64,000 nt of DNA, from the NCBI GenBank assembly GCA_949152475.1, contig OX424561.1:28948481-29012480 (forward strand), read 5' to 3'. The translations under genes and the position numbers were made by a program. The notes under the pieces are model-generated. The model did no database searches. It saw only the letters and a program-made list of their open reading frames with translations, and was not told where the DNA came from. The DNA comes from Terebella lapidaria. Its lineage: Eukaryota; Annelida; Polychaeta; Terebellida; Terebellidae. This document shows positions 11,932-63,965 of the stretch, piece after piece. Positions within the stretch are counted from its first letter, which is position 1; each line of letters starts with the position of its first letter.

Positions 11932-12122
11932 TACGGAGCCCCTGAGGTGACATACCAAAAATATTTTTTAACCCGTGGGCACGATTTGACAATTCGTGGG
12001 CACGAAATACTAATTCGTGAGCACGAAATAGCAATTCGTGGGCACGGAATAGAAATTTGGGTTATTGAGTCGTGCGCACGCCTTAAAAAATATTTTTGGT
12101 ATGTCACATGAGGGGCTCCGTA
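11932..12122. mobile_element. MITE A: TACGGAGCC termini with 21-bp palindrome array
   Basis: Left end TACGGAGCCCCTGAGGTGAC; the right end is its near-perfect complement, both followed inward by an AAAAATATTTTT tract. The 6-bp target duplication ATGATC is present on both sides (11926-11931 and 12123-12128). The interior holds five tandem units of about 21 bp with a CGTG..CACG core (for example CGTGGGCACG) separated by AT-rich 11-mers. Same terminal family as the element at 37937-38558, but with a different interior unit. Confidence 0.9.
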
Positions 12123-13617: not shown

Positions 13618-13903
13618 TGTAGCATTTTTAGATGACTGTAACGACCCGTCCCTCCCGCGCACCACATTTCCATGACAACACAGACTCTCTACATGACTTT
13701 ACACGCGGTACATAAGCACTATACGATCAATACACAATCAATATACAAGTAGGTCAGCTCACACACACCCTCGGCCCCGTCCAATCAAATAATTCGGCTC
13801 AGTGCAGCGGCCTTGACCTTCATACACCTATACTTCACCACATGGAAAATAACATGCACCGCACCCAGAACACGTGAACAGTACATGAACCGGGGAAACC
13901 CAC
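13618..13903 (+). repeat. 5' LTR fragment of the Gypsy element
   Basis: Begins TGTAGCATTTTTAG and matches 21279-21563 nearly base for base, ending at CGGGGAAACCCAC. Beyond that base the left copy continues into pol while the right copy continues as LTR. This marks a deletion breakpoint rather than a natural LTR end. Confidence 0.93.
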
Positions 13904-15517
13904 GGAGCCCTACCAGGACCCGGAGAGGAGCCCGACCCGTCCACGGTGGACGCCAGTCATTATGGCGACCTGCCTCCACATCTGCAAGAGATGGTGGACC
14001 GCGCTGGACTCGCACCAGAACAGCACCGGCGCTGTGCCAAACTTGTCCATCAATACCAGGACACGTTCATGCATCCGGAAGGACAGCTGGGACGAACTCA
14101 AGTCGTCCAACACAGGATCGACACTGGCACCTCGGCCCCGATTCGGCAACGGCAACGATCCGTCCCCCAGGCCCAGCAAAGCTTCATCGGTGAGGAGATC
14201 GACAAGATGCTACACTTGGGGTGTATAGAGCTGTCTGATTCGCCCTGGAGCTCACAGGTGGTGCTCATGCGTAAAAAGAACGGCCAAGTGCGATTTTGCG
14301 TCGACTATTGGCTCCTGAATGACGTCACTCGCAAGGATTCATATCCTTTGCCCAATATTCAGGACACTCACGACGACCTGGCGGGCGCTACATACTTTTC
14401 GGCCCTGGACTTGGCCTCTGGTTACTGGCAGGTCGAAGTCGACCCAACTGACAAGCCGAAAACTGCCTTTGCCACAAGGAAAGGACTGTATCAGTTTAAG
14501 GTCATGCCATTCGGCCTTAGTAATGCACCGGCAACATTCGAACGGCTAATGGAAACCATACTTTGTGGATACTTGTGTACACGGTGTATGTGTTATCTGG
14601 ATGACGTCATCGCTTACGGCAGAACATTTGATCAGGCACTCGCAAACTTGGAAGCGGTCCTGGATCGAATCAGATCGGCAGGCCTGAAACTGCAACCCAA
14701 AAAGTGCGAACTGTTTCAGAGAGAAATCTTGTACTTGGGGTTCATAGTTAGCAGCCAAGGAATACGAGTCGACCCAAGTAAAGTCAAAGCCATTAGAGAA
14801 TGGCCGACTCCATGCGAGATCACCGACGTCAGGGCTTTCCTTGGTTTTGCCAACTACCACAGGTGATTCATTAAGGACTATGCTGAGATTGCTGAACCGC
14901 TGGTAGCTCTCACCCGAGGTGAATGTCATTTCACTTGGGGACCGGCCCAACGACAAGCTTTCCAGCGACTCTGTGATGCCCTCATCAAGGCGCCCAAGCT
15001 CGCTCACCCGACCCAGAACCCGGACGACTATTTCATCCTCGACACGGATGCAAGTGGCTTTGCTGTGGGAGGCGCACTCTCACGAAGGGTTAACAGGAAA
15101 GAAATTCCCATCGGGTTTGCCAGCAAAACCCTATCCCGAACCCAACTGAACTATTGCACCACCTATCGGGAACTACTGGCAGTAGTTGAAATGGTACAGC
15201 ACTATCGGCACTATCTCTGGAGTAGGGAATTCCTCCTCCGGACCGACCACAGCTCCTTGAGGTGGCTCAAGAACTATAGCGACGCCGACGGCATGCTCGC
15301 CAGGTGGCTCGCTAAGTTGCAGCAGTACGACTCCAGGATAGAGCATCGACCCGGTAAACTACACGGCAACGCTGACGGCCTGTCACGGTGTCACAGTTGT
15401 AAACACCAAGACTGTCCCGGACGACTCGTCATGCCTCCAACCGACCCAGAAACCAGTTCTGGAGAACTTCCAGTTCGTCGGATAACTGTTGACAAGGGCA
15501 GACCTCCTGGACAGTGA
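13904..15517 (+). pseudogene. pol: Gypsy pol: reverse transcriptase and RNase H, one nonsense codon
   Basis: The frame runs through a reverse-transcriptase domain (LRKKNGQ-like VLMRKKNGQVRFCVDY, SALDLASGYWQ, MPFGLSNAPATF, catalytic CYLDDV near 14597) to LGFANYHR. It is then interrupted by TGA at 14864-14866, which looks like a CpG-to-TpG change of an arginine codon. The same frame resumes and carries an RNase H-like domain (LDTDASGFAVGG, RELLAVVEMVQHY, RTDHSSLRWL, GNADGLSR) to a stop at 15517. Protease and gag are absent, so the first coding base after the LTR is a breakpoint, not a start. The element cannot make a normal polyprotein from this copy. Confidence 0.92.
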
Positions 15518-17340
15518 TTCAATAATATCACCGGTCTCGCCCCGACTAATTTCGGCACGTCAAGTTGTTCGAGTCAGTGCCTTGCACGCCACACTGGATG
15601 GTCAAAAGTGGCTATCGGACTACATGACTCAGGACATTGTCGCTGCACAGCAAGCCGACCCCAGCGTCGGAAAAGTGCGACAGTGTATACTAGCCGGCAC
15701 AAAACCAGACTCGAGGGAAGTTGCACGCCACGGAGAGGAGGTAAAGACACTTGTTTCTCGCTGGAACCTCCTGGCGCTTCAAGACGGAGTACTGGTACGA
15801 AACACAAAACCTGACCCCGCTGGACGAACCGTGGTGCAAACTGTGCTTCCTGTCGCACTCAGGACTCAGGTTCTGCACCAACTTCACGACCTGAAGATTG
15901 TCGGACATCTCGGCATACAGCGTACCATCGAAAGAGTCAGGCGCCGCTTCTACTGGCCCGGCTTGGCGTTGGACGTCGCCCGCTGGTGTGCCCGTTGCCC
16001 ACAATATGTGACCCGCAAGGGTAAACCGACCCCAAAAGATCGCCCCTGACACAGTTGCCAACAGGAGCTATTTCGACAGGATAACGATGGACAATCTTGA
16101 CACTCATAAAGTCATCGGAAGAGGCCATCGGTACATACTTGTCGTGTCGGACTACTTCTCGAAGTACATGGACGCCTTCCCGCTACGGCGACATACGGCC
16201 AAAAATGTTGCCGACATCTTGGTGAACAGGTGGATAGTTTACCATGGTGTACCAAAGGCTTTTCATAGCGACCAAGGTACCGAGTTCGAGTCGTCCCTGT
16301 TCCGCAATGTCGTGCGTCTCCTGGGCGCCAAGAAAATTCGTACGACCCCATATCGACCTCAGAGTGACGGCCAAGTCGATCGTTTTAATAGGACATTGCT
16401 AAACATGCTGAGTGCATTTGTCAGCGACCGTGCAAACAACTGGGACTTGCACCTACCATATGTGTTAATAGCCTATAGAACCTCGGTACACTCGTCCACG
16501 GGATGCACCCCGCATCTGATGGTGTATGGACACGAGTGTAATCTGCCAGTCGACCTGGTGTTCCCGACCTACGACCCCGAGCCTCTACCTCCGTGTGGTC
16601 CGGAGTATGTCGAGTATCTGCGGCAAGCCATCAGAACCGCCCATGGTTTCGCCCAAGACCATCTCGAGAAAGCAGCAATCCGGCAAAAGATGGGTTATAA
16701 CGCCCACGCAAAACCACGACCCCAGTTTCAACCAGGAGAACTGGTCCGGTATTATTATCTGCCTCTCACGCAGAATAATAAGTTCGCTCGACCCTGGACT
16801 GGTCCTTGGAGGATCATCGACCGTGTGACTGAGGTAGATTATCGTATCGCCTTGGTTTCCAACCCCCGAAACACTCGAGTTGTTCATCTGGATGTGTTAA
16901 AACCATACGAAGGTGACAACCAAGCGGCTCACATCTACTCCGACCCTGTACGACCTACACAGTCGTCAAGCAAGTCCGACCCGGAACACTCACCCAACCC
17001 CATGGGACTTCTCAAGGAATTCTATTACCCTTGGGAGGTTACAGTACAAGATCGGCATACTGATTCAGACCAAACTGCTGAGTCTGACTCACCAACGACC
17101 AAGAATCGTCAGTCACGACCTCCGACCTCATCCGGCTCAAGCCGACATCGACAAAAGAAAAGATCGCGCAAATCAAGTTCGGACATGCCAAACTGGCATG
17201 CAAACCACGTGGACAAAAGCCCGCGAAATCTTCCGACCCTGAAACAAGTGAGGCTACGCCCCTGCCTGCTCGACCCAGTCGACCCAAACGCCACGCGCGC
17301 AGACAGGCCCGATACAGATAACACCGGCCTAGTTATCTGA
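15489..17340 (+). pseudogene. Gypsy integrase, frameshifted, catalytic Glu replaced
   Basis: The zinc-binding N-terminus (H..H near GHLGIQRTIERVRRRFYWPG and WCARCPQ) reads in one frame to a stop at 16049. The core domain reads in another frame from about 16087 to 17340, so at least two indels separate RNase H, the zinc finger and the core. The core shows GHRYILVVSDYFSKY, HSDQGTEFES and RPQSDGQVDRFNR. In Ty3 integrases the last motif is normally GQVERFNR with the third catalytic acid; here the codon at 16378-16380 is GAT, giving Asp. A GPF-like WTGPWRIIDR segment and a polar tail of about 130 residues follow. Confidence 0.9.
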
Positions 17341-35200: not shown

Positions 35201-38200
35201 TATTTTCCAATCAAGGTCATCTTTGTGAACTGCAATATCACCATTAGGTATGCTGCATATGACTTCATATATGTTCATAATACAAACATATAAGCTCTAT
35301 CAACAAGTATTTTGTCTGTAGAGGCCAATTTACACATGTCAGGTCAGGCAAGGTTGCGAGATTTGGATTTCAAGGTCATATATAAAGTCAAATTCAAGGT
35401 CTCCAAGAGATGTGCTATAAATACATGACTTCTTGTAAGCTTATACACAATCCTAACCCATACGTGCAAGTGTTTAAGCCTCGGTGGCTTATTTTAATCA
35501 TTTCACATCGGACATTTAGCACTTAAAGTCATCTGAGGTCAAGGTCAAGGTCATCATCAGTTGTTCCATATATGACTTCCTATATGCTCATAATGCCAAC
35601 TTAAGCTCTATCTACGAGCATTTCATGTGTAGAGGCAAATCTGGGCATTTTTTTACCCCAAAATGGCTGTTTTGACCTTTCAAGGTCATCAAAGGTCAAA
35701 TTCAAGGTCACCACACAAGTCGCCATATATGACTTTCCATTTGAAAGTGCCATTTTCTAAGCTCTATCTTCAAGCGTTCTATGAGTACAGTCCTGGCAGC
35801 TCCCATTATGAAGGAAAAAAGTGACGAAAATTTTCCAAGTCCAAAATTTTTTTCAAAGGGTGAACATTTTTTTTTGCCTAGAAATGGCCCAAAATGGAGG
35901 GTAATGCGATTTGAGGCGAAAAAAATCATTTTTCGCCGACCCGTCAAAAATTCAAAAAGGCTGCCACACGGAGACCGGCGATTCAAGGGCAACAAAACTT
36001 ATACACATAGTAAAGGTACATAAGGGGAATATTTTGAAACAACAATCTCAAAACTGATCAGACAGTTTTCGAGAAAAGACACAAGGTGCAAATTTGGGCA
36101 TTTTTCGACCAAAAAATGACTGTTTTGACCTTTCAAGGTCATCCAAGGTCAAATTCAAGGTCACCACACAAGTCGCCATATATGACTCCCCATTTGAAAG
36201 TGCCAATTTCTAAGCTCTATTTTCAGGCGTTCTATGAGTACAGTTCTGGCAGCTCCCATTATGAAGGAAAAAAAGTCCAAAATTTTTTTCAAAGGGTGAA
36301 AAAAATTTTTTTGTCTAGAAATGGCCCAAAATGGATAGTAATGCGATTTGGGGCGAAAAAAAATTTTTTCGTCGACCCGTCGAAAATTCAAAATGACCGC
36401 CATACGCAGACCGGCGATTCAAGGGCAACCAAACTTATACACATCACAGAGGTACATAACAAGAATCTTTTGGAACAAAAATCTCAAATCTGATCAGTTT
36501 TTGAGAAAATGGCCGCCAAAGTTCAAAATTGACCGTTTTTCGACAAAAACGGCCGCCATTTTTAAAAAAAAATAAAAAATCACAAAACTAAAAAATACCT
36601 CCTCAAATTATTTTAAGGTATCTTTTCCCAAATTTTCAGAAAGATTGGACCATAAACTTTAAAGATAAAAATGTGGACGGACGATGACGACGACGCCGAC
36701 GACGACGACGACGGACGGACGGACGGACGGACGGACGGACGGACGCCCGACGCAACGCCACGGCAATAGGTTATCGGATCATAGGTCCGGTAACCTAATA
36801 TAGGGAGGCACTCCCTGTTCTTAACACTTTGGTAAGGGTACCTTGTATGGCATTTTATGGCACACGCGCCGAGTGACTCCTGGGAGGGGGGGGGGGGAAG
36901 GGTGTTATCTTTCTGCATACCATATTCATTCTATTGGAACTATAGAATGCAGCAAATATGTCTCAAAATACCAAAAAGATTGTGAATTTGGTGGAATGAA
37001 ACGTTTGAATTAAAAGGAAGAAATTGATATGGTGCATGTTTTAATGCCGCAAACATAAAAAAAATTCTGCAGTCACCATCTGGTCACATGAGATGATTTC
37101 CACTAGATTTGTTGGGTATTCTGGGCGGTTAGTCAGTATTTGAAGACATTTTTCAATGTTTTTCAAACATCAAGACCATATTTTTGCAAGTTCCTTTCCA
37201 GTAAACACGAAGGCTCTGGTACATGGCTGTCATGCTGCAGCAGTTGGTGGTACTATTTACAATGCAGAAGTGCTCTATTCGACTTTGCCACCAATTTTAC
37301 CACCGGCATTTCAAGCTCACCATCTTCAGAACCTCCCAACAATGATACCAATGCTTTCTTTCCAATGTATTTCTGTGTTTGATTCGGAGTGGTGAATATT
37401 TTCGCTTGCTACATATGAACAACATATGGTAGCATATTCATGTAATTGGACCCAACAACTCTGGAGAATGTTGCATGGACCGGAGTTGATTGTCTTGTGC
37501 TGGCTCCTTGGGTTCTGGTATCATGAGGTCTTGTTCATCCATCCTCTCAAGCTTTTGGTTGAGCTGTCAGTGTATCTGCATCGTGACTGCATGATGTATG
37601 CTGCAACCAACTCTCAGTTAATCATGGGATGTATGAATGGCAGCTTGTTACCGGGATTTTTCAAGAATTCCTCATCTTTCGACTGGTTGATTATTCCTTC
37701 ATCAAAATGCATTGACACAGTACCTATTGCATGAGTAGCAGCTTTAATAACATCTGGTTCGTAATTATCGAACATAACAACGGCAGATTCATGCTTTTAG
37801 TAACGTACCAGGCAAGACCATCAGATGTGGAACATTGAGGCCAGGGTAAATTATGGAATACAACACCTTTCAGTTCAGTTCACTTATTAAATAATCGAAC
37901 AAATACTGATCAGGAGTGTAAAGACACTCTGAGGTCTACGGAGCCTCTGAGAGGACATGGAAGAAATATTTTTAGCACATTGTTATTGCGTTCCCTCGCA
38001 ATATTATCGCGTTCCCTCGCAATAATATTGCGTTCCCTCGCAATATTATCGCGTTCCCTCGCATTCCGGATCGCGTTCCCTCGCGATCTTATTGCGTTCC
38101 CTCGCAATCCGGATCGCGTTCCCTCGCAATCCAGATCGCGTTCCCTTGCGATATTATCGCGTTCCCTCGCGATCTTATTGCGTTCCCTCGCATTCTGGAT

Positions 38201-41200
38201 CGCGTTCCCTCGCATTGTGCTGACGCCAATGACTTCTGAGAAGGTTATTCTACAAGATCGCGAGGGAACGCGATCCGGAATGCGAGGGAACGCGATATTA
38301 TCGCGAGGGAACGCGATAATATCGCGAGGGAACGCGATAATATCGCGAGGGAACGCGATCTGGATTGCGAGGGAACGCAATAAGATCGCGAGGGAACGCG
38401 ATCCGGATTGCGAGGGAACGCAATAAGATCGCGAGGGAACGCGATCCGGATTGCGAGGGAACGCGATAATATTGCGAGGGAACGCAATATTATTGCGAGG
38501 GAACGCAATAACCGTATGTCAAAAAATATTTCTTCCATGTCCTTTCAGCGGCTCCGTAGAGGTCAGAATCGAGGCAGGGGCATTAACAAGACCCAGCACT
38601 TTCTGTGGGTTATATTCATGTCGGCCATGTGTAACCATCAATTCAGCAGTAACCAGATGAAACTAGTGGTCAACACAAGGGCACTTCAGAGTCTAGACAA
38701 AGGGGATGTCTGAGATTGATTATCTCAGAAACAGGGATCCGATCACTTGCAATACATCATTGTTCAACATTGGTATGGGATGACAGCTAGAGATGAGATC
38801 ATTGTTGGAAAATCAAGAGAAATTGTTAGAAAATTCTGAACTCGATGGTTTGGAAAGTCAGTGAAGAGAAAGATGGTGATCAAATCAGGAGAATTGTATC
38901 TCAAACAACCTTGAAGAGCAAGGATGGGATCAGTATGGTTGGCCAAACTGGTCACAAGTAAATTTTGTTGCGCGGAGTGAATATGCAATTATATCGCGCA
39001 ATAAATTAACCAATCATAGACAGTGTTTTATGACGCGATCAAAATATATTTATATATATCGCGCATTAATTCAACCATTCATATACCGTCTCTTCATGCG
39101 CGACACATTTAAGGATACTTATTGCGCGCATTAAATCAGCAATTGTATCGCGCAGTAAACCAGCCAATCATGTGAGGTGTTTTATGTCACGGTACAATTT
39201 GATTTAGATCGCGGAATACATCATCCAATGACAACTTGAGATTTCATGCCCGCAATAAATATCATTTGAAATGCATCGCGCATTGAAAGACAGGTTATGA
39301 ATGGTTGACATAAAGCGCGACATAAATATATTTAGATCGCGATATAAAACGCCCCACCTGATTGGCTGATTTGCTGCTCGACAAAATTCCTTATTTATCG
39401 CGCGCAACAAACTTTACTTCTGACCAGTTTGGCCAACCATAGATCAGAGACTGGTTACTCTAGGGGAATGCACAGAAGAGCATCAACAAGCAGCGTTTCA
39501 TACATTTTCTATCTATTGGTAGCACATGTGTAGCTGGTTGCAATCCTCGATGCAATTACTCTGATAACTGCAATAGCAATTTCTACAGCTCGAGAACAGG
39601 ACTAGTAGCACTACCAGGGGATGACACGTTTTGATTCTCTTGCTTTGTCATGCTGAAATATATTTGAAATAGACTTGATGATATTACACATGATTTATTC
39701 ATGGTAGCAGAACGCGATAAGCCAGCACATACATGTAAGGAATGGGCCATTGTTAGAAAGTTTGGAGAGCTGCTGGGTCCGAATCCAACTTATAGTGTTC
39801 ATCCGCTCAATATAAGGATGTGGCTGGAAGTCAAGAAGTCAAATAACCTATATGACAGTTTGGGTGAGCAATTGAAGATATTCACCAATCTGGACCAAAC
39901 AAAGGAAGCCATAACAATTAAAGGAGAGAAAGCCTTGATGTTTTTATACAGCCTTGATGTCATTGTATGGAGATCTGAAGATTGACAACTTGGAAATCCC
40001 ACGGTTTTGTGACAAGGTAAGAGGGAGCATTTCTGCATTGGAACCACAAATGCTACCACCAACTGCTGCATCTAAATACCACAGCCTTCGTATGTACTAT
40101 CAAGTAATAGAATGGACAGGAAATTGTAAACTAAATTTCAACTGCTAAAACATAATTTTAATTGAATTGTTATGCTATAGGGTTATAGGGTTTTTTTTTC
40201 TGATCAGATTTGACATTTGATCTGCCCTGTAGAGATGAATGTCCATTGAACTGAAACGAGTTTTTATACATTATTGAAAGAGTGATTCAGAGTACTTTCC
40301 AACGTTATATATATTTCGTTTCTTAATAGGTCAATGGGGAATGACATCTACTCATTAAACAGGTGCCAGCATTGTAATTGAGGTAATTTTTTGGCACCGA
40401 ATCACTAACAAAAATCGTCTGTAATCAATAATGGCATAAATGATGTCGGTTGAATTACGTTTATATTGATAACGCCGGAAAAACAGAATAGTGACGTCAT
40501 GTTTACCCCCTGAAACAGTGCTGCCAGCTGGCGATTGCAGATATGCACTAAACATCCCCATTAAAATGGAAATGGTATGCCAAAAACTAACCATATTAAC
40601 CCCCCAGGAGTGACCAAAAACGCGATAGAGGAAATAGGAAGTGCATCCCTACATTTTAAACGTTAACACTCCTATTCGTTTTCTGTGTATCATAATTTCC
40701 CTGATAGGTGGGGTGGTGCACAGTGACTCCCACTGGCCCATGGCGTAATGTGCTTTGAAACTTTTGCTAGTGTCAACTTTGCGCAGGAAATGTGCAGCAC
40801 TCGTTTGACAGACATAAAAACCAAGACTCCGATGCACTTTCGTTAATGGTATTCATATTTTAAAAATATAAATATTTATCAAATAATATCACATTTTCAT
40901 ATACAATATAGAAGTAGTTTTGGGAAGTTTCAATGGATTTACACGATGTGGAATCGAAAAACAGTTTGAATTTTGATCTAGACCACAACTGGCAGGGAAT
41001 TTCTTCACTCAATTTGACCAATATATATAGATGTAGGCAATGAATTCATAATAAACGTGCCCAATATATTGATATATGCTGATATCATTGAAATAAAAAT
41101 GTCTCATGTTGGTTAATATATATGTACGTCGCATCATCTTGGGTAACAATATCAATTTAAAAACCGGTTTTACGGATGTCTTACATATTTGCAGATTTTT

Positions 41201-45287: not shown

Positions 45288-46361
45288 TTACTTACTGATT
45301 AGGGGAGGCATGAAATTTGTAAGAGCAGCGCATACGAACCAAATCTGATCAATGCTTTTGAACGAAGTTAGTTCAACTTTCTGTCCAACAATTCTGAACT
45401 TTTTGATTCTAGAAATTGCTCTTTCTACATGAACTCTGTGTCTGGCGATTTTCCGTGTTGCTTCAACGTCCTTCTCACTAAGTTGTGATCCATCATGTGC
45501 GAAAGGTGGTATATGTAATTTCAGTCCGAGTCCCTCTATCTCCTCTCGGATATGAAAACCCTTGTCAACCATCACACCATCTCCTTTCTGCAGAAACTTT
45601 TTTTCCAACATTATTTTCAAATGTGTCAAAAGTCTGCTTCTGTTTGTGAGCTCCTTGTCTGAGATGGATCCTCCAAACAAAGTCGAGATGAAGGTGATGG
45701 CACCACTTGGATCATTACCTATCAGGCCCTTCAATGTTGTGCTTGATTTATATTGCGAGTACAGTTAACTCTGCGTTCTCGAGGATGCAGGTTTTTGAGT
45801 AGGCAGTTCTGTTGCATCCAGGATGAGTAGGGTGTTCGGAAAATCCTGTCTGAATAGTGCTGGCATCTGTTCTTGGATGGTTTGTCTCTGGGGCCATATG
45901 GGTAATGAGGCGAGGGTGAAAAAAATATAGTTGATCCAGTCATTAAAAAGGTTACTAGCATCTTGTGGGGATACTTCAAACAAATTGGATATGTGCACGA
46001 AATCAAAAATCAACCGTAGCTTCACAAAAGTCATAAGCATCTGATTCTGTGGGGACATTTCGGAGGCAGCTGCTTTCGATTTTGCATAAACCAGTGGTGC
46101 AGCGTCTTTGTTAGGAACAAAAAAATTTAGTAGAAAGCTGAAACGATTGAAATCAAATCCTGTGTTGTAAGGAAATAAATGTTTTTTCATAAGCAAGGTT
46201 TCGAAGCTAACAGATGGCAACTGTTTGGGATGTGCATTGTGATTTTTACAGACGTCCTTCGAATGCTCCTCAGCCTTGAAGCGTTGTAGCTGATTTCGTG
46301 GCTCTTCATTCTGTTTTACAAGTCTTTGGATGATGGTTTCGTAATCTGAAAAAAATGACAT
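45288..46361 (-). pseudogene. PIF/Harbinger-like DDE transposase (HTH_Tnp_4/DDE_Tnp_4 type), one nonsense codon
   Basis: DDE transposase of the DDE_4 type. The single frame from 46361 to 45288 is broken only by TAA at 45765-45767, in a spot where relatives carry a sense codon; the same frame continues on both sides. N-terminal half: acidic/basic linker, helix-turn-helix region (LLMKKHLFPYNTGFDFNRFS, FDFVHISNLFEVSPQDASN), then FPNTLLILDATEL with the first catalytic Asp. C-terminal half: GLIGNDPSGAITFISTLFGG, GDGVMVDKGF with the second Asp, and HRVHVERAISRIKKF with the Glu. About 357 residues in all, near full length. A zinc-finger domain often found upstream in relatives is not seen. Confidence 0.88.
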
Positions 46362-46698
46362 GTGTATGAAATATGAAATGAGTCATGTATTATAGGATGT
46401 GATCATCTGCATGTATGCAATAATATTAAGATGGATACATCAAGAACATGTTCATGCATGAATTGAATAGAGGTGTATGATTGCTGTTTGATGTGATGTG
46501 CGTGTACACTGGGGAAGAACCCCCTCGATTTTAGAATCATTATAGTAAACACACCAAACACATGATGTTTCATGATGGGATACAAATACATTTCATGTGT
46601 GTTTATTTTTAACGTGCCCCACTGATGGCACAGCAGAGAGCTCCAACGCTTCAAGAGACCTTCTGCGGGGTCACAGCCCTACCCCTGTCTGCACCTGT
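46362..46698. other. Non-coding gap
   Basis: Nothing recognised between the transposase and the ORF1-like fragment. Confidence 0.4.
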
Positions 46699-48259: not shown

Positions 48260-48722
48260 ACGGTATCGTTCTGTCACTTGGCATACTTCACTTGAGAATC
48301 AAACACGGCAATTTTCTAAACGTTGGAAACGTTGGCAATCTACCCCAATGTTCAGTTTAGCCATGCCATTTATTTTTTTGGTGTGTGCACAATATTGTAC
48401 ACTTGCTCGGTTTTGTAGCAATGTAATCTTTCGAAATTAACATGTATGTGTGTAGAATACACCCCCATTGTGTCTTCTGATACAAAATGACAATAATACT
48501 TCGAATCATGATGGATGTGAACAGGACCAGATACTTGAATACCCTCAAAAATCCCGTTTAGGGCTAAAGTTTAACATTGGGGTAGAATTCGGTAGGGAAT
48601 CCCGTTTGACTCTCAGGTGAAGTAGTTCCCCCCCCCCCCTATGCAAGGTTATAAAACGATAATATTTAGCATCGAAAACTGTCGTCAAAAACGGGTGTAA
48701 ACAAGCTAGAAAAATAAGAGTA
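48260..48722. mobile_element. Diverged second copy of the long-TIR MITE
   Basis: Shares CTTGGCATACTTCA, GGCAATTT, TTTGTAGC, AATCTTTCGAAAT, CAACATG-like, GTAGAATACA, CCGTTTGACTC and the outer GTTTTTGAC..GTGTAAAC..AGTAT ends with 5993-6579. The left end is not well defined. A C-run interrupts the right arm near 48632. Confidence 0.75.
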
Positions 48723-49397
48723 TGAATCTATGAGACGCGGGTTTGCAATCTTTGTCTCGACGTTCAACAATCGAATGAATTTTTTTTCTCTCTGTCTCAC
48801 AACCAGCCACTTTTTCGCACGCAAAGCACGGAATGTTCGGATCCGTGGTATTGATGGGTGACAATCTGTAAAATACGGAATGGGTTCCGAGTTCAACACA
48901 ATCGACCTATATAGTGATAGTTCCGTGCTTGTATAACTATTCCGACGGTATTCGAATTTTGTAGACACTTGTCATATGGGCATATACAATCGTCCAGGCC
49001 TATTTGTACAATATTACCCAAGATCAACTCGACGAATATATTTAATTCCGAGCCATATTTAAAACGGTGCTGCATTTTATTGACACCTTGGTATTTTTAA
49101 AGGATGTTCCCTCGATCACGGATCATTATTCATATAAACTACCATTCCTTCTACACCGATATTCGTCCTGCACTGACATCGTATATAAGCACAACATTGA
49201 ATCGAAAACAGTGCTAGAAATGATCGCGCTATTGAATCTTTTTCCCTGGGGAGATCTGGTGCTCTGCACCAGGAATGATTCTTGGTAAATGGATTGAATG
49301 AACGCACAAAAACATTATAGATTGAATGTATTCGTCAATATTACTTAAACAACATTTTCCGGAGAAAAAAAAAACCCAATCAAAAATTCACAGTACA
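48723..49397. other. Non-coding stretch
   Basis: No exon or repeat recognised. Confidence 0.4.
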
Positions 49398-50197
49398 GTG
49401 CCCCTGATAGGATATGGTGAAGAAAAAACTACTTCCTTCACAAGAAGTACTACTCCGGTCGCACGAAGTTCTAAGTCATCTGCACAAAGTAGTGAGTCGT
49501 TTGCACGAAGTACTAAGTCTTTCATACGAAGGACCACTTCCTTACTAAGTCGTTTGCACAAAGTAATAATCGTTTGCACGAAATACTAAGTCGTTTGCAC
49601 GATAAAAATGTACATAGTTGACAAACCCATCTACATCATCTTCTTATTGATTCTGATGTTACCAATTAAAATTTTATTTACCACAGTCAGTTTTCAGGGT
49701 CCTCCCCATGACCTAAGTCTGCATACCCCTATTTACATTTTTTAAAAAACCTTTTAGAATAATGATTTGTTTATCGATACACATAAGTTTACCTCAAATT
49801 ATAGCAATAGATTGCAGTCAGTAATATCTGATTGATCAGGAAAAATTTAGGATATTATGACCAAATTCTTGCCAGTAGAAGCATAGGATTCAGAGCGCCA
49901 TGTGGTGCTTATGGACATATATGGCACCAAATTTGGAGCGCCATGTGGCGCTTGTTAGTTGAGCGGCTGAGATGATGTAGATTAGTTTGCCAACTTTGTA
50001 ACATTACATCGTGCAAATGATTTAGTATCATGCAAAGGACTTTATTACTTCGTGCAAACGACTTAGTACTTCGTGAGAATGATGTAGTAGGCTAATTTGT
50101 GCAAAAGATGTGGTACGAAATAGTACTTCATGTGAACGACTCAGTACTTCAGGCAAACAAAGTAGAATTCTTTTTCACCATTTCCTACCAGGGACAC
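49398..50197. mobile_element. MITE E: 21-bp TTTGCACGAAGTACTAAG units, head-to-head
   Basis: Termini GTGCCCCTGATAGGATATGG..GAAGAAAAAACTACTT and an imperfect complement. The left array (about 49435-49605) repeats the TTTGCACGAAGTACTAAG core at 21-bp steps. The right array (about 50005-50160) repeats the complement CTTAGTACTTCGTGCAAA, also at 21-bp steps. The spacer of about 400 bp contains a GAGCGCCATGTGG duplication (49896 and 49938). No coding capacity. Confidence 0.88.
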
Positions 50198-50658
50198 CGC
50201 ATCACAGTCATGGCGCCATAAGATAAGACAATGTGTGAAGATGTGTAGGTATTTCTACTGCACAGCTGATGGAGTTAGTATACAACCAGATGTTGGACAA
50301 AAAATCATGGACATCTGGCCTATCAGTTGTCAATGGAATCAATACCACAACAATTTTTTTTCATTTCTGTGCCTATACCAAGGCTGCACACTCGGGTTTA
50401 AAAGCCCTATATAAATCAATGTAAAATGTCCCACTCCCGACCCTCTTATCTCTATAAAAGAGGAAGAAACTAAACATATTGTTCATTTTTTCTGACCGCT
50501 ACATCACTAGGCAGTAATAAAAATGCCATTTCGTCATATGGTCACACGCTCGTTTTTTCGCTAAGTCTAAATGAAAAAAATCTCCAGTTTCCGACCGTTT
50601 TGCCGACGAGCGTTTGACAGCCGAGGTCCCCTCGAAACATGTGTGTTCGCTGTAGGTA
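50198..50658. other. Non-coding gap between MITEs E and F
   Basis: No feature recognised. Confidence 0.4.
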
Positions 50659-50982
50659 TATGGAACGCCGGTACGACATGCGAGAAGTGACAAGCGACAT
50701 GCGAGAAGTGACAAGTGAGAAGCGACATGCGACCTGCACACTATAAACTATGACTTATTCCGTATTAAACCATGGTTTAATACGAAAAATTGTGTAGGAT
50801 ATTCTAGTTGCATTTTGTTTCACGCAAGTCGCAGTTTGTAGAGTTAATTCGCATGTCGCATGTCACAGTTTTATAGGCTAACTCGCAGGTCATATGTTCG
50901 TGTGGGCAATATTTCTCGCTTCTCGCATGTCACGTGTCGCTTCTCACATGTCACTTCTCGCATGTCGCACCGGCTTTCCATA
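50659..50982. mobile_element. MITE F: CGACATGCGAGAAGTGACA units, head-to-head
   Basis: Ends TATGGAACGCCGGTACGACA and complement (two differences). The left array has 21-bp CGACATGCGAGAAGTGACA units. The right array has the complement with 21- and 14-bp steps. At the centre lies a perfect 24-bp palindrome (50761-50784), half-site CGTATTAAACCA. No clear 6-bp target duplication. Confidence 0.88.
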
Positions 50983-53065: not shown

Positions 53066-53418
53066 CTAGTCGTAGTAGTTTGGACAGTAGCACCAGTTGA
53101 AGCCTGTTTCCTTGTCATCCCAGCAGCAAAATTTGTCAGTACACTGTGCAGCTGTGATGAGGGGCCAGCCGCAATCCAATCTAAAGCTCTTCGGCTGAAT
53201 GTCGCAGATAGAGGGATGATGGAAGCACCAGTTGACGCCGCTCACAGAGGAATCCCAGCAGCACTTTTCCGTGGGTGTTGAATCCCGAGCTACACACTCT
53301 GCCTCTGTTATTTTGGGCCACCCACAATCTAAGCGGTTGTTGAGGGGGACATCAGCGCATGGGAACTGCCATGCACGGAGACTGCTAGAGCAGCGATGAC
53401 CACCATGAACATCAGCAT
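53066..53418 (-). CDS. Secreted protein with two trefoil (P-type) domains; signal peptide out of frame
   Basis: Trefoil proteins are small secreted mucin-associated factors. Two P-domains each show the six-cysteine pattern: domain one CADVPLNNRLDCGWPKITEA through EKCCWD and VNWC, domain two CDIQPKSFRLDCGWPLITAA through FCCWD and FNWC. The frame ends YCPNYYD at 53066. A typical signal peptide, MLMFMVVIAALAVSVHG, starts at ATG 53418 immediately upstream, but it reads one base off from the trefoil frame. The two frames must be joined near 53360-53370, with no obvious intron. Either a one-base indel has disabled the gene or the assembly lacks a base there. A polyadenylation signal follows closely. 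Confidence 0.85.
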
Positions 53419-53469
53419 GACAGTGATTTGATGTCGGTCTGTTTAATGAACAGAACAATATTAACTCCT

Positions 53470-57200: not shown

Positions 57201-59551
57201 TTGTAAAAAAAACACAGTACGTCGGACTTTATTCACGACGGACTTAGGACAAAAATATTACGTGTAATATTGTTTGCTTAAGAGACGGATCCTTTGTCTG
57301 AATGAATATAACACATAAGCTATAATAGCGGACTGTCAATAGCATTTATTCGGAAAACAACAATACAATTTACATTACGATTTCTCTTTTACAGTACATT
57401 TACCTTAAATTCAGAACAGACATGGAATCCAAATCATGCATTAAATCGGCATAATTCATTTCTGTTTATTTTTTTTTTATTGAAACTGGACATCATCTGC
57501 CTATATACTAGATAGTACAAAACATTGAACACTGATTGAGTTTTTGATTATTTTCGATAGAAACAATCCTCCTACAATCCTGATACATTTCACTGGAAAT
57601 CCACAGAGTTCAGTTAACAGTATATGGTATACTGAAGTAATTTAATTTTTGCATTTCAGCCCATCAGTACCACAGATATGAAAATATCACATACCAAATC
57701 AATTTTGTTTGTTTGTGTGGTACAAATATAAATACATGCAATTCGCAATGTATTCGGTGTATTTTCTGATGGATTACTACATGTAGTTTCAGTTCACCCA
57801 ATTGATGTTGAACAAATGAGTGTGACACATTCCACCCACAACTTGTAATACTTCAGTATCAGCAAAAATTTGACTGATTAGTTTAAACAAAATATTCTTA
57901 TGACGCCACGATTCATTGCTACTCTGCAATGTTACATTGTTCGAATACATGACGTGATTGGATGTTATGTTCCTGGCTGTCGCATGAAGTGCCATTCAAC
58001 CTCAATTGTCACTATAATCTAATTACATTATCCATAATGACGCGAAAATATGAAAAAAAGAAAAGAAATTGAGTGACTTGTGAGACATGTGATCCATAAT
58101 TGACTAACGGTACTTATTTGATAACATTCAGAAATAACTATGGCACATTACTGGTAGCAAATGTTAACGGATCGTTGCCAAATAATTTCGGAATATACTA
58201 GTATTCTTGTCGGAGTCATCGATGATTCCTATCCCGCATTCAATATTCTTAGTATGGGGGTCTTTGCACTGTATATACAAAAAAGTTATGGAGGAAAGAT
58301 TCTCAGATCAGGTAAAGCTAATTATTTTAGGATTCAATTATGGCCATTTATGGGCCATTGTGAATATTGATTCCAGTAAGCCAATGCACAATGGTAATTA
58401 AGAATTGTTTTTATACGAGGCAGACTACAGGCTGGTCAGATGCTGGCTGCTGAAGGTGACCCCTCTCCAGGGGTTCGGGTTGTAAATTGTACAGAGGCAC
58501 CCCAGATGCCTGGGATCCGGACCACGCGGTCACTCTCCCTGCAGCAGCCGCCGCTTCAATAAACCTGCATTCACTTTTTTTTGTATATACACCGTTCATC
58601 CGTTCATGTTTCACCAACTATAACAACAACCGAGTTTAACTCTATTGCCGTATAAACAAAGACGTCTTTGAGAAAATGTCGGACAACTGACAGGGATGCG
58701 GTGATGGTCATTGCATGGTTGCTGTAAATAAGTGGCACTTTATTACTGTGTCATAACAGGACAGACAGTACCTGGTTTATTTTGTCTCACAGTCGAGGGA
58801 TAATTAGTGACCGAGCCATCGCGTGAACACTACCGGACTGATCCCAGTTTCCCACATTCTATAATGTGTCCTGGGTATTAAACAAACGCTCCTTTATTGA
58901 GTGTGTACGATACGCTATCACCAAGGTCTTTGTATCATCTGTAGTAGACATACATGTACTATTAAAATCCAACCGGAGGTGAGGTCCTTTGTTTGAACGC
59001 TCCATTCTCAGTAGGGATTATTATCTAATAATCAATATTGGAATTATCAATATTATCGCCATGTGAACATATTTCGTATTAAAAGGAGAAAAGCCTCGCA
59101 ACTCTCCATTTCTTGCTTCAAATGAACCTCGACGCTTCGCGTATCGGTCCATTCTAAGCAAGGAATGGAGAGTTACTCGGCTTTTGTCCTTTTAATACGT
59201 AACATGTCCACATGGCGATTTCTCCAAGGAAACATGACCAAACATAACATAACCAAATGTTATTTTAGAAGTTTGTGGTCTGTCACGGTCCTCCCTATCG
59301 CCTCATCTAAATAAATAACTCGGTTTTATGGAATCATTGTCAAAACGAATCTGGCTTAAATTTCACAGAGAACTTGCCGCTGAACATTGTGTTCCCATAT
59401 CTTATCAATGTACAACGGGGGTAATATCATAATTTGAAATTCGACTTCCGATGTTCAGTCATAAACTCACTTTCAAGTCATCTAGATATGTTCTTCCACT
59501 GTCAACATTTTTTTTATACAATTCTATCCTTTTGTCTAACCGAAACTAAAG
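57201..59551. other. Non-coding stretch downstream of the DUF7869-type gene
   Basis: Contains the 59055-59219 foldback and otherwise no feature. Open frames at 57789-57995 and 58161-58617 lack support. Confidence 0.45.
59055..59219. mobile_element. Foldback element, 165 bp
   Basis: ATCGCCATGTG at the left faces CACATGGCGAT at the right. Inner segments also pair: CGTATTAAAAGGA faces TCCTTTTAATACG, and AACTCTCCATT..TTGC faces GCAAGGAATGGAGAGTT. No target duplication identified. Confidence 0.8.
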
Positions 59552-62500
59552 CTAGTCGTTGTTATATGCAGCAATCGAGTCTTTGACATATTTTGGAATG
59601 AAGTTTTTCCCGGTCAGTTCGAAGCCGTACTTCCATACCACCTGTCGGCTGATGTCTTCTGTCCATTCCACCAGTTCGCGGATGCCTTTCTTTCTGAGCA
59701 AGTGAGGCTTCCATGGTCCATTCAAGCTTCCGTTGTACCAGCTGACAGATATACGATCGCCCTGTAGTGACCGGATTTTAGCCATTTGAGGCCAATGGTC
59801 CGCGTACTGCAGCATGTCAGTCAGCACAAGATCTCCCACTTCCATTGGTCGGGTACAATCTTCACGGTTCTTTAATGGCTTTCGACCAATACAAACCTTG
59901 ATAAATGCAAGCATGAAAACAAGTTTATAACGAACCGCCCTCCAGCACCGGTCTGGTAAATAAGTGTATAATTAATCTACGAAAAATGGTTTTGTCTATG
60001 AATTACAAGGTTACGTGCATAGACATGTAGTTTACAGCAGTAAAGAGGGCTCAATAGTTTTTTTTTCATAACCATATTACGTTTAACAACGTAATTACCG
60101 GTGGTATCGGGTTGTCCTCGTCTGATATGTCGGAGAAGATTGGCGCATTTTCGCTGCTCTGTTCGGCAGATGGTCTCGACGATTGCGCCTGTTTGCAATG
60201 TAATTTTGGGAGGAACCACCCTTCCACGTTCTCCTCAAAAGCACCGTCATCGGAATCGTCTTTGAACATAACATATAACGGTCAACGGTGAACATATCAT
60301 ACTGTCTAGAAAATGAACAGGATGGCACTTTTTTATGAAAATGTTTGTTGCGAATTATTTCCATTTTCATCACATTCCCAACCAGATCGTGTCTTGTTAT
60401 TTCATTCGAACTTCAAAATCTACAACTAATTTTTTCTTTCGAACTGACTTACTTTCCACCTTGTCGGCCATATTCTGGAGCCAAGTGCGCCACCACTCTT
60501 TATCCGCCTCGATCTTCATGTATTTGAAAATCTAAATGATGTAAAGATGTTCATGTCATATTTCGAACGCAATGAAATCATAATCGATTATTGCCAAACA
60601 TATTTAATTGTTCATTTGTTACCTCAGGGACAGTTCGTTGTAAGTTCTCAACTTCTAGAGTCTCGTAACAAGGTCTGAGGAGTTTTGGAATTCCCTGTGG
60701 ATGAGATCGAAGGAGATGCTGGTCGTCGGGCCGACTTATGCACGACTGCCACTCACGGTCCGCCGACCATTTTTTTGTCCAGATGCAGGCCTTGCCATTT
60801 TCGCCCTTCACAATTTTAAATACATGCGGTTTACTGTGCATCGACAAGGCAGTGAGGTTAGGAATGAGCCAGTTACTGATGTCGTATAACTGTGACAGTT
60901 CAAATCCTTCAGGTTTGGGGTTGTAGCATTTCTCGAAACCGCACAATAACTTGTCAATTGTCATCGCAGTGTGTTTTGTCAACCACCTTGAAAATCTCGA
61001 AAACAACTGATCAACGTCCTCGTGGGTATGTCCAACCATCAGGAACCCTATCTTGATTTTCCGGAATATGTCAAGCTCGACCAAAAGGCAACAAAGGGCG
61101 AGGACGAAGCGGTTTTTATTTTCCCGGCCGCAATTGTCCATTTGGAGATACCAGACAGGAGGCAGAGGTGACTTCAACTCCAGTACCCTCAACAAAATGT
61201 TCATGGTTAAGTTGGAACCGTGGGGCCATTGGCATAAATCCAGAAAACCGTATACACCTGCACCGTGTACAATAACTCCCGTGAGGTGTGTTTTCAGTTT
61301 GTGGGTAGCAGCAATCATCTTTCCCACATCAACGAAATGTGGCAGGTCCGTTTTGGATTGATCCATGCCGTCGATGATACAGGATAGATATTTGTCTTTG
61401 TGATGTCTGGCCTTTTCAGCGTGCTTGTAGTACTTTTGACGTTCTTGGCTGAAATTTAAATTGATGTTATTTAATGATTGTACACGAGCAGGATATTTTT
61501 CGCGCCTAGGAATTATTGGAAAAAATATGTAATATTCACTTTTGCTTATTCAAATGCCTTTCACGACATTCTTTCAATGCTTTTCGCAATGTCTTGTCCT
61601 TAGTTTTCTCCAACTTTGCTTTGATCAATGTACACTTATCACATTTCGCAAATCTGTTGACCTGGAAATATAATATTATTTGTGTAAACATACATATTGA
61701 ATGAAAATAACACCAGATATTTCAAGTTTAACGTGATGTTGAGATTTCCCAGAAGAAAAAAGGAATACTGCTGAAACCATATTGACATTTCGTTAAAATG
61801 CCTCAATGCTTACCAGACTATTTTTTCTGATGAATTCTCCAAATAAAATTCTCAAAATGAATCATATATTCCGAATAATGTTCGAACAATTGATCTGATT
61901 AATTCTCTATTTAGTTTATATTTTCATAATTTTACAAACATTTAAGTGTATTAGTACTAAATATTGAATGAGATTTGTACACATAGTTCTTACTGGTGGT
62001 ATCGCCACGTGCTTGAAATACTTTTTCCACAGTCGGTAGAAGTAGGACATGGAACAAACTGTGACGCCCTTCTCTTGCAATTCCATCTCCATTTGTGTGT
62101 ATATCTCGAGCTGTGTCAGACATGACGGTAGATAGAGTCGAGTTGTGTTCGGTAGTTTGTCAGCGAACAACGTTACATACGAACGGATCCACGCAATACT
62201 CTGTTGAACAGACGCCGAATGTAATCCGCGCTTGCTGCTGTTTGGCGTCACAGCGGTCACGCACCCAGCTGCAAAGCAGAACATTCCCCCGCATACAGTT
62301 TTAAAATTAGAACATTTGGATTTCATGATTGCTGTAACTAGGTTACATTTTCTTCCACATCCTCTGTAACCCCTTGTATAATGTCATGCTAATGCGTGTT
62401 CCAACGAAATGACAAAGTGCGATTTCATATCATTATAGCTTACATTCAAAAGCACGCCTGATCCTATAGACAGTTGCCCGTGATGAACCGATAACCAACT

Positions 62501-63965
62501 GCCAGGCCGTGAAACACACAGTCATCGTACCTGGAAATAGGTGAGAAAATGACAACCAACCCTGTGCCAAAAGTGACTGTCATAGTGTGAAAGCTTATTT
62601 TATAATATTTTAGGTGGGAAATCTGATGAGAAATAATGATACAAAAATTCGATATTTATATATTTATATACATGCATATGTATATGCAATTTTTGGTACA
62701 CAAAGTCGATAGCAACTCTCATTCACACACGTTTCGTATTCACTGGGTGGGAGCTTGCCCATGATTCTCGACGAGTCAACTCGGTAAAAATCTTTCCTCG
62801 CAGGGGCTTTGCTCGGCAAAAATCTTTTGTCGCATGGGCTTTCAGATGCCCCTGTGATTGAAGATTTTTGCCGAGCAATGCCCCTGCGTAGAAAGATTTT
62901 TACCGAGTTGACTCGTCAAGAATCATGGGCAAGCTCCCACTCAGTGGTATTGTTCCCAAAATAAATCAATAGCAAATCTCTATTTTATTTGGGCAGACCG
63001 CACTCTCCCACCGCACCCCGAACCCCCGCTCCACCACTCCCATCTAACCGTATGCCAGGGACAACGCCCCAAGCATGGCAGCAGATTATAAAATGTAACA
63101 GATCGTCAGACAGACAAGTTGTACCTGCCGACAGAGGGCGATCCATCTATATTACATACCGATAACGAACGTGTAGGTGAAGTCTCCATCCATATCTTTA
63201 TTGGAATGCGTGCAAAAGTAGTCGAGTATCCATTTTCTCTGTTGACTTTTCGTCATGTCTTGGAATTCTTTCCTCACCCGTGTGATAGTGTCGTAGCATT
63301 CAATGTTGGCCGCAGCCAGACATAACCAACTACAACACATCACTGCTGCAAGCTGGGTAGTTGCGACGCAACCTCGTTTCACTGCAAAATGAATGGACGT
63401 TTGGATAACATAATTATTGCAAGTACAAACATCAGACCTGAGGTTATGTTTTGTCAACATCATTTACATTGTGAAATATTTGAGAACAATCGATACTGAA
63501 CAATATACCATAGCACTTGCCTTTCTTATGAGATTTCTGATGTGCTGGCACATTCCCATCTCCTGATTCAGGCGAACTATCATTCCTTCTTTTCCCTGAA
63601 CCAATCGGCCTGCCGCGGCGAGCTAATTCTGGAAACATAAACCACAACGTTTAAAGTTTAGGTGACAAATGAAACAGATATAAATTGAAGGCCCGAAATG
63701 TTCATCGGTATACAAAAGACTTATAATCTGATACCCTCCAGCAGCTTCACTGAGACTTAAATGTTTTTAAACTTCACTTACGATTGTGTCTGTTGCTGTC
63801 CTTTGATGCTTGACCCGGTTCTGCAGCCTCAGAATCACTGGATAGACTCTCGCTCGTGTCGTCGTCAGATAACCCATCGAATTCTTGGGCCCATTGTTTA
63901 CCAAACAGAACTCGTCTGCTAGATGTATCATGGTCTGTGCCCCACAAATCGAATAATGGAATTTA
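59552..63965 (-). CDS. DUF7869-type multi-exon gene (5' end unresolved)
   Basis: Family widespread in invertebrates and some fungi, which I recall as DUF7869; function unknown, RNase H-like fold suspected. Exons by descending position: first exon ending 63782 (start unresolved), 63628-63521, 63381-63160, 62530-62444, 62268-61994, 61661-61540, 61448-60623, 60531-60453, 60259-60099, 59896-59552. All phases agree. The N-terminus is acidic (LSDDDTSESLSSDSE). Later segments: FTAWQLVIGSSRATVYRIR, LYLPSCLTQLEIYTQ, a zinc-like RFAKCDKCTLI, then the core IIDGMDQSKTDLPHF, WYLQMDNCGRENKNR, GFLMVGHTHEDVDQLFSRFS and ADKEWWRTWL. The C-terminal exon shows VGDLVLTDMLQYADHWPQM, SVSWYNGSLNGPW and KYGFELTGKNFIPKYV. 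One intron has a GC donor (63520-63519). The absence of stops or shifts over 740 residues argues for a live gene rather than a relic. Confidence 0.8.
62741..62946. mobile_element. Foldback MITE with 5-bp target duplication
   Basis: Arms of about 90 bp: CACTGGGTGGGAGCTTGCCC at left faces its near complement at right, continuing through GACGAGTCAACTCGGTAAAA and GGGGC..TGCTCGGCAAAAATC. GTATT is duplicated on both flanks (62736-62740 and 62947-62951). It lies in an intron of the DUF7869-type gene. Confidence 0.9.

Follow-up and report, generated by a model that had tools for sequence, protein, structure and literature searches.

Internal arrays with a period of about 21 bp in MITE-like elements of Terebella lapidaria

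A 64,000-nucleotide stretch of the Terebella lapidaria genome (assembly GCA_949152475.1, OX424561.1; hereafter the window) contains five short elements, labelled A, B, D, E and F, four of which (A, B, E and F) are non-coding and have interiors built from short units repeated with a step near 21 bp. The question raised by this locus is why one period should recur in several elements; an initial annotation proposed that the unit sequences are unrelated and that the period reflects a mechanism that counts length rather than one that copies a motif. Our analysis points to a different answer, in that A, B, E and possibly F are probably non-autonomous, foldback-like elements with the signature of the IS3EU superfamily, in which the arrays of A, B and E would come from one ancestor and the units would act as accessory binding sites.

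A period of about 21 bp in four elements

Lag autocorrelation was computed for each element against 100 dinucleotide shuffles, and tandem-repeat (TRF) and inverted-repeat finders were applied to the whole window. A lag of 21 is top-ranked in A (z 7.1), B (z 14.5) and E (z 6.7); in element F a lag of 7 ranks first (z 9.0) and 21 second (z 6.7), such that the 21-bp period of F is three times a 7-bp sub-repeat, the latter being the main period. TRF returned 49 rows in the window, and all nine with a period of exactly 21 fall within A, B, E or F; elsewhere in the window, the rows in the 15-23 range have periods of 15, 16, 22 or 23. Element D, which has the same terminal signature, shows no 21-bp period, its top lags being 61 and 65. 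The shared period of A, B, E and F is sound, with a reservation on F. The initial description of elements that resemble miniature inverted-repeat transposable elements (MITEs) and hold arrays of about 21 bp in their interiors is supported.

Element B (37937..38558; 622 bp; TACGGAG..CTCCGTA) opens with a left conserved terminal segment (37937..37974, plus strand) that shares homology with the A and E ends. This is followed by a left array (37983..38214, plus strand) of 11 units with the core GCGTTCCCTCGC and a step of 21 or 22 bp, a central spacer (38215..38253), a right array (38254..38511, minus strand) of 12 units that is the mirror image of the left one, and a right conserved terminal segment (38521..38558, minus strand) with the same end homology. 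The step is 21 bp in 13 of 21 cases and 22 bp in the other 8, and because these lengths are mixed the lags that follow 21 in B are 43 and 64. Where the step is 22 bp, the spacer has 10 bases, with CCGG or something close to it in the middle, in place of 9 bases of AT type.

The array of element A (11932..12122; 191 bp; TACGGAG..CTCCGTA) consists of four units of AATTCGTGGGCACGAAATACT (11970..12053, plus strand; TRF row 11974-12057) with steps of 21, 21 and 21, and a fifth, isolated unit (12067..12087, plus strand; 13 of 21 positions match) has the core CGTGCGCACG; the first core lies 42 bp from the left end and the last 42 bp from the right end. The best limits of element E (808 bp; TACAGTG..CACCGCA) are 49394..50201, in place of the 49398-50197 given initially. 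Its left array (49434..49611, plus strand) has 8 degenerate units of TCGTTTGCACGAAGTACTAAG, homologous to the A unit, and its right array (50000..50160, minus strand) has 6 degenerate units; among units with at least 12 of 21 matches the steps are 20, 21, 26, 31, 32 and 41, with 21 in 7 of 12. Element F (50659..50982; 324 bp; TATGGAA..TTCCATA) is made of 7-bp sub-repeats that fall partly into 21-bp groups, and the steps on its right side, at the same matching threshold, are 34, 35 and 67. Arrays are thus present in all four elements where the initial annotation placed them, but the step is not strictly 21, being 21 or 22 in B and 20-41 in E, and the period of F is mainly 7.

Kinship of units, ends and arms

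Six pairs of units were compared in all rotations and on both strands, as any comparison of repeat units must be, with 4000 shuffles, 4000 palindrome-keeping shuffles and 6000 genomic 21-mers as controls. The A unit (TTCGTGGGCACGAAATACTAA) and the E unit (GCACGAAGTACTAAGTCGTTT) agree at 17 of 21 positions, a value reached by none of the shuffles of either kind and by none of the genomic 21-mers (best 16). The A and B units agree at 14 of 21 positions on opposite strands (P 0.0018-0.0043), a result that passes a sixfold correction only narrowly, and the F unit matches none of the A, B and E units in any rotation on either strand. The proposal that the unit sequences are unrelated holds for F, but fails for A and E and probably also for A and B.

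The ends carry a similar relationship. When the 40-bp ends were compared, each against 1000 shuffles with the first two bases fixed, z values were 7.3-8.9 for A and B, 4.8-6.1 for B and E, and 3.6-4.3 for A and E, with no shuffle of 1000 doing as well in any of the 12 cross-element comparisons. The D ends give z of at most 2.4 against A, B and E, and those of F give 2.1-3.9 against A and B and 0.5-2.8 against E, values that are partly due to a shared start. On these scores A, B and E are homologous in their 40-bp ends. The arrays begin at similar depths in two of these elements, as the first unit starts 38 bp from the element end in A (the matching TCGT-position being at 41) and 40 and 41 bp from the left and right ends of E. 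One ancestral array is the simplest account for A and E, and it is likely for B as well. Since A, B and E share homologous ends and units (A with E, and probably A with B), their common period needs only common descent, and inheritance is a simpler account of the shared length than counting by a new mechanism.

The units were also described initially as palindromic, and this is clear in A and B, but E and F do no better than many shuffles. A single unit per element was folded as DNA and compared with 200 shuffles: the B hairpin beats 200 of 200 and the A hairpin 199, and shuffles do as well in 26 of 200 cases for E and 43 of 200 for F, which was folded as 42 nt. A cyclic pairing score, which takes no account of loops, sets A alone apart: its 8 of 9 pairs are matched by 0.8% of genomic 21-mers, whereas the scores are 6 of 9 (31%) for B and E and 4 of 9 (97%) for F; the score of B is low because six central bases are unpaired. 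The 12-base core of B is exact in 22 of 23 units, with one deviating cell in 276 versus 60 in 230 in ten flanking columns, and the non-pairing loop TTCCCT is invariant in all 23. One pair of arm positions in B reads T-A in 8 units, C-G in 9, C-A in 6 and T-G in none of the 23 (Fisher P 0.007, the units not being independent); with the left and right arrays taken apart, P is 0.24 and 0.06, neither significant, and the arrays are copies. This covariation may point to arm-to-arm conversion or to selection on the palindrome, and we do not rely on it.

Mirrored left and right arrays in B, E and F, as first described, were recovered by the inverted-repeat finder, whose 25 longest of 65 pairs include arms of 128 nt in B (98% complementary), 67 nt in F (85%) and 59 nt in E (81%). 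Long inverted repeats composed of tandem repeats, the mark of foldback elements, are therefore found in B, E and F. Element A has one array of four units and a single unit near the other end instead of two mirrored arrays. Alignment of the whole B arms, which differ by one unit (11 versus 12), shows one unit-sized gap of 22 nt and one-base gaps near the end and in the array, with an unlike centre, and suggests that the arms are copies of each other that change size in whole units.

Termini, superfamily placement and surrounding sequence

The window was scanned for inverted pairs of TAYGG..CCRTA, with at most 5 of 20 mismatches and 80-3000 bp apart, and the six bases flanking each pair were compared; inverted TA..TA pairs were scanned too, with their six flanking bases matched for duplications. 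There are 90 left and 85 right pentamers, which give only four qualifying pairs, namely A, B, D and F, and three of them have a perfect 6-bp target duplication on both sides: ATGATC in A, GAGGTC in B and GATCAG in D. In sixty first-order simulated windows such pairs average 0.13 per window, with 2 as the largest number, and duplications are absent. Element F is flanked by TAGGTA and AATACC and has no target duplication. The ends of E read TACAGTG on the left and, as reverse complement, TGCGGTG on the right, and an exact TCACAG duplication is present at limits set by eye, so that four of the five elements (A, B, D and, with these limits, E) have a 6-bp duplication. Three further candidates (5993-6578, 7714-8109 and 48284-48624) were rejected; they have no 6-bp duplication, and a lag of 21 is not significant in them (z 1.4, z 1.4 and outside the top eight, respectively).

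Families of IS3EU are reported to end in TA..TA and, as a rule, to make 6-bp duplications (PMC10045372), and a set of fungal families to have terminal inverted repeats (TIRs) longer than 30 bp, ends of the form TAYGG..CCRTA and 6-bp duplications (PMC12730594). In the window, TA..TA termini of this kind are exact at both ends of A, B, D and F, and E departs from them with TACAG on the left and TGCGG on the right; in each of the five elements the left 40-bp end aligns with the right one (z 8.8-13.3), in keeping with TIRs longer than 30 bp. Because the termini and 6-bp duplications match this published signature, we file the elements as IS3EU-type MITEs by these two features only, membership of the superfamily being probable on that basis. 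The 8-10-bp duplications that mark foldback elements of the Mutator superfamily were not found, the duplications of A, B, D and E being 6 bp long.

Element D (38934..39441; 508 bp; TATGGTTGGCC..GGCCAACCATA) lies 375 bp from B. It holds repeated TATCGCGCANTAAA-like motifs; with up to 3 mismatches allowed, TATCGCGCANTAAA has 28 matches in the window, where 18 are expected, and 15 of the 28 lie in D; 2 of 100 shuffles reach 28.

Sequences resembling B were also recovered elsewhere. A protein search with a chance open frame of B gave two predicted proteins, P0001 and P0002, among 7005 candidates, and both have a 7-residue period (z 7.3 and 4.0, respectively), equivalent to 21 bp; the match in P0002 begins with TEPLKGH, the translated end segment, and continues with B-like units. 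These periods, together with TEPLKGH, suggest that B-like arrays of the same step are present on two further contigs in public data. Open frames of A and E, used as protein queries, gave no candidates. Searches for unit and end patterns in viral contigs, and for a unit pattern in genome contigs, gave no match, which is weak evidence given that these are viral and prokaryotic collections and is what an animal element would lead one to expect. Rfam reported nothing at gathering score in the window, and a literature search on five unit cores found only unrelated aptamer work.

Several other features occupy the window. Two adjacent frames at 45288-46382 (minus strand), with DDE_Tnp_4 and HTH_Tnp_4 domains, are pieces of another kind of DNA transposon, and frames at 13889-17340 (plus strand) with reverse transcriptase and integrase domains are of the long-terminal-repeat retrotransposon type. 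The sole rve integrase in the scanned open reading frames (ORFs) adjoins reverse-transcriptase frames and was read as belonging to a retrotransposon. A 323-residue frame at 60578-61549 (minus strand) matches DUF7869 (E 5.9e-73), and a frame at 53066-53467 (minus strand) with two trefoil (P-type) domain stretches is perhaps an exon of a host gene. Also present are a tandem array at 8520-9204 (147-bp unit, 4.7 copies, 92% matches) and two inverted repeats with hardly any spacer, at 62741-62946 (8 nt separating arms of 99 nt, 90%) and 59055-59219 (3 nt separating arms of 81 nt, 83%).

Origin of the arrays

In the reading that we favour, A, B and E each have a conserved terminal stretch of about 40 bp and, on its inner side, a subterminal array of 21-22-bp units specific to the family, the TAYGG..CCRTA signature having decayed in E and the 6-bp duplication being absent in F. 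The three arrays would descend from one ancestral array, whose unit sequence may have drifted or may have tracked the binding specificity of its protein, and the step would have stayed near 21 through indels within units being rarer than substitutions and homogenised away. Arrays would grow and shrink by whole units via slippage or unequal exchange, with the two arms of B arising as copies of one another. Each unit would serve as a putative accessory site, bound most likely by the DNA-binding domain of a transposase supplied in trans, by analogy with the Galileo element. A step of 21-22 bp would set the units on one face of the helix and so suit a binding role, and inheritance alone explains the step too.

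Several observations weigh against this reading. The B and E units agree at 12 of 21 positions (P 0.055-0.075), which alone is not significant; the first cores of B lie 51-52 bp from its ends, about 10 bp or one helical turn deeper than in A and E; and the B unit matches A on the opposite strand, which places the B array out of register with A and E. The conserved core of B could stem from recent amplification or homogenisation. The superfamily placement draws solely on termini and target duplications, and no IS3EU transposase was found among the 9 Pfam-scanned ORFs of the 35 in the window with 120 or more amino acids. Element F has no duplication and its unit is unrelated, and the limits of E were picked by eye to show a duplication, its right terminus being TG, which we take as decay.

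Some of the same observations would fit arrays constrained in length, in which a protein or complex needs sites two helical turns apart and independent families converge on about 21 bp. The steps of 21 and 22 in B, 21 in A and 21 in 7 of 12 cases in E are close to two turns of B-DNA, the period of 21 is restricted to these elements within the window, F shows a lag of 21 despite its unrelated unit, the B array is offset from those of A and E by about one turn, and the step is kept though the consensus units of A, B and E differ (57-81% identity). However, A, B and E are not independent, the first period of F is 7, D has the signature without the 21-bp period, B tolerates 22 and E shows 20, 26, 31, 32 and 41; two helical turns are a possible reading of the step, and we consider such convergence rather unlikely. 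A similarly doubtful proposal is that the units are helically phased subterminal operators of IS3EU-type elements, palindromic dimer sites two turns apart whose sequence turns over with transposase specificity and whose 21-bp spacing is selected; if so, families would be defined by spacing and not by sequence, the B array would lie one turn deeper, and F would be a case of convergence. The mechanism that counts length finds no support here, given that A, B and E are related, that F is built of 7-bp sub-repeats and that D has no such period; and instead of forming a transposon class defined by length, the elements most probably constitute a foldback-type variant of the IS3EU-type MITEs.

The alternative to which we give slightly more credit, while still thinking it improbable, is that the arrays are functionless by-products of mutation, the palindromic units forming hairpins at replication and being amplified by slippage and template switching. 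Stem-loop models for tandem repeats in MITEs have been published (PMC8268682, PMC12628747), and the strong single-unit hairpins of B and A, the covarying arm pair in B (with the non-independence of its units noted above) and the unit-sized gap between the B arms count in favour of this view; yet the stretches of E and F form arrays without being detectably hairpin-prone, the TTCCCT loop of B is invariant though it does not pair, and hairpins explain neither the fixed step nor the placement of the first units at 38-41 bp in A and E. Capture of an ordinary dispersed satellite, also found outside the ends, is considerably less plausible. In the oyster C. gigas many satellites are annotated as belonging to mobile elements, two of them, 129 and 690 bp long, to IS3EU; a 21-bp satellite there lacks such an annotation (PMC8268682). 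Repeats outside the termini would point to satellites, as the initial annotation noted, and in the window there are no free arrays of A, B, E or F units, only single inexact matches; the arrays, which in B, E and F are mirrored, are placed close to both element ends. Least credible of all, to the point of being nearly negligible, is a hairpin transcript diced into 21-nt pieces that shaped the DNA period. It has in its favour only the number 21 and the ability of the B arms to pair in a transcript; the 22-bp steps of B and the 7-bp sub-repeat of F speak against it, no route by which a dicing length could become the period of a DNA repeat is known to us, and the sequence offers no evidence for this idea.

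Placed beside known systems, the elements of the favoured, inherited-array reading resemble IS3EU in their TA..TA (in the fungal families, TAYGG..CCRTA) termini, 6-bp duplications and TIRs longer than 30 bp, and differ from it in their subterminal 21-22-bp arrays and in that no transposase was recognised inside them. Repbase holds 45 IS3EU families (PMC10045372), which lie outside the present comparison; neither a foldback-type architecture nor subterminal arrays are described for IS3EU among the matches listed or in the available portions of PMC10045372, PMC12730594 and PMC8268682. The nearest precedent in which binding was tested is Galileo, a foldback-like element of the P superfamily in Drosophila, which likewise joins a conserved terminal segment of about 40 bp to a family-specific TIR with internal tandem repeats; outside this segment, which is conserved between families, and within the family-specific TIR lies the first binding site for its THAP domain, with further sites in the tandem repeats (PMC3688188). 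Galileo differs in having another transposase superfamily, TIRs of more than 1 kb and binding that was tested, the binding role of the units here being a presumption. The authors describing Tetris of D. virilis propose a scenario similar to that of Galileo (PMC4079207). In Tetris, and in Tm1 of Meloidogyne, the TIRs are modular too and vary in how many tandem repeats they hold, and Tm1 has MITE-like forms, but both are Mutator-type foldback elements, with duplications of 8-10 and 9 bp and units of about 220 and 13-15 bp, respectively. MITEs of Donax trunculus and the Xenopus Xstir elements, as summarised in PMC8268682 and PMC12628747, likewise have an internal tandem array.

Tandem repeats inside MITEs and inside the TIRs of foldback elements are already well described, and if our placement of these elements is right, what is added is a foldback-type architecture for IS3EU. 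The presence in one window of related families that have kept their ends while their units diverged would make them a tractable system for asking whether subterminal arrays are bound by the transposase and co-evolve with it.

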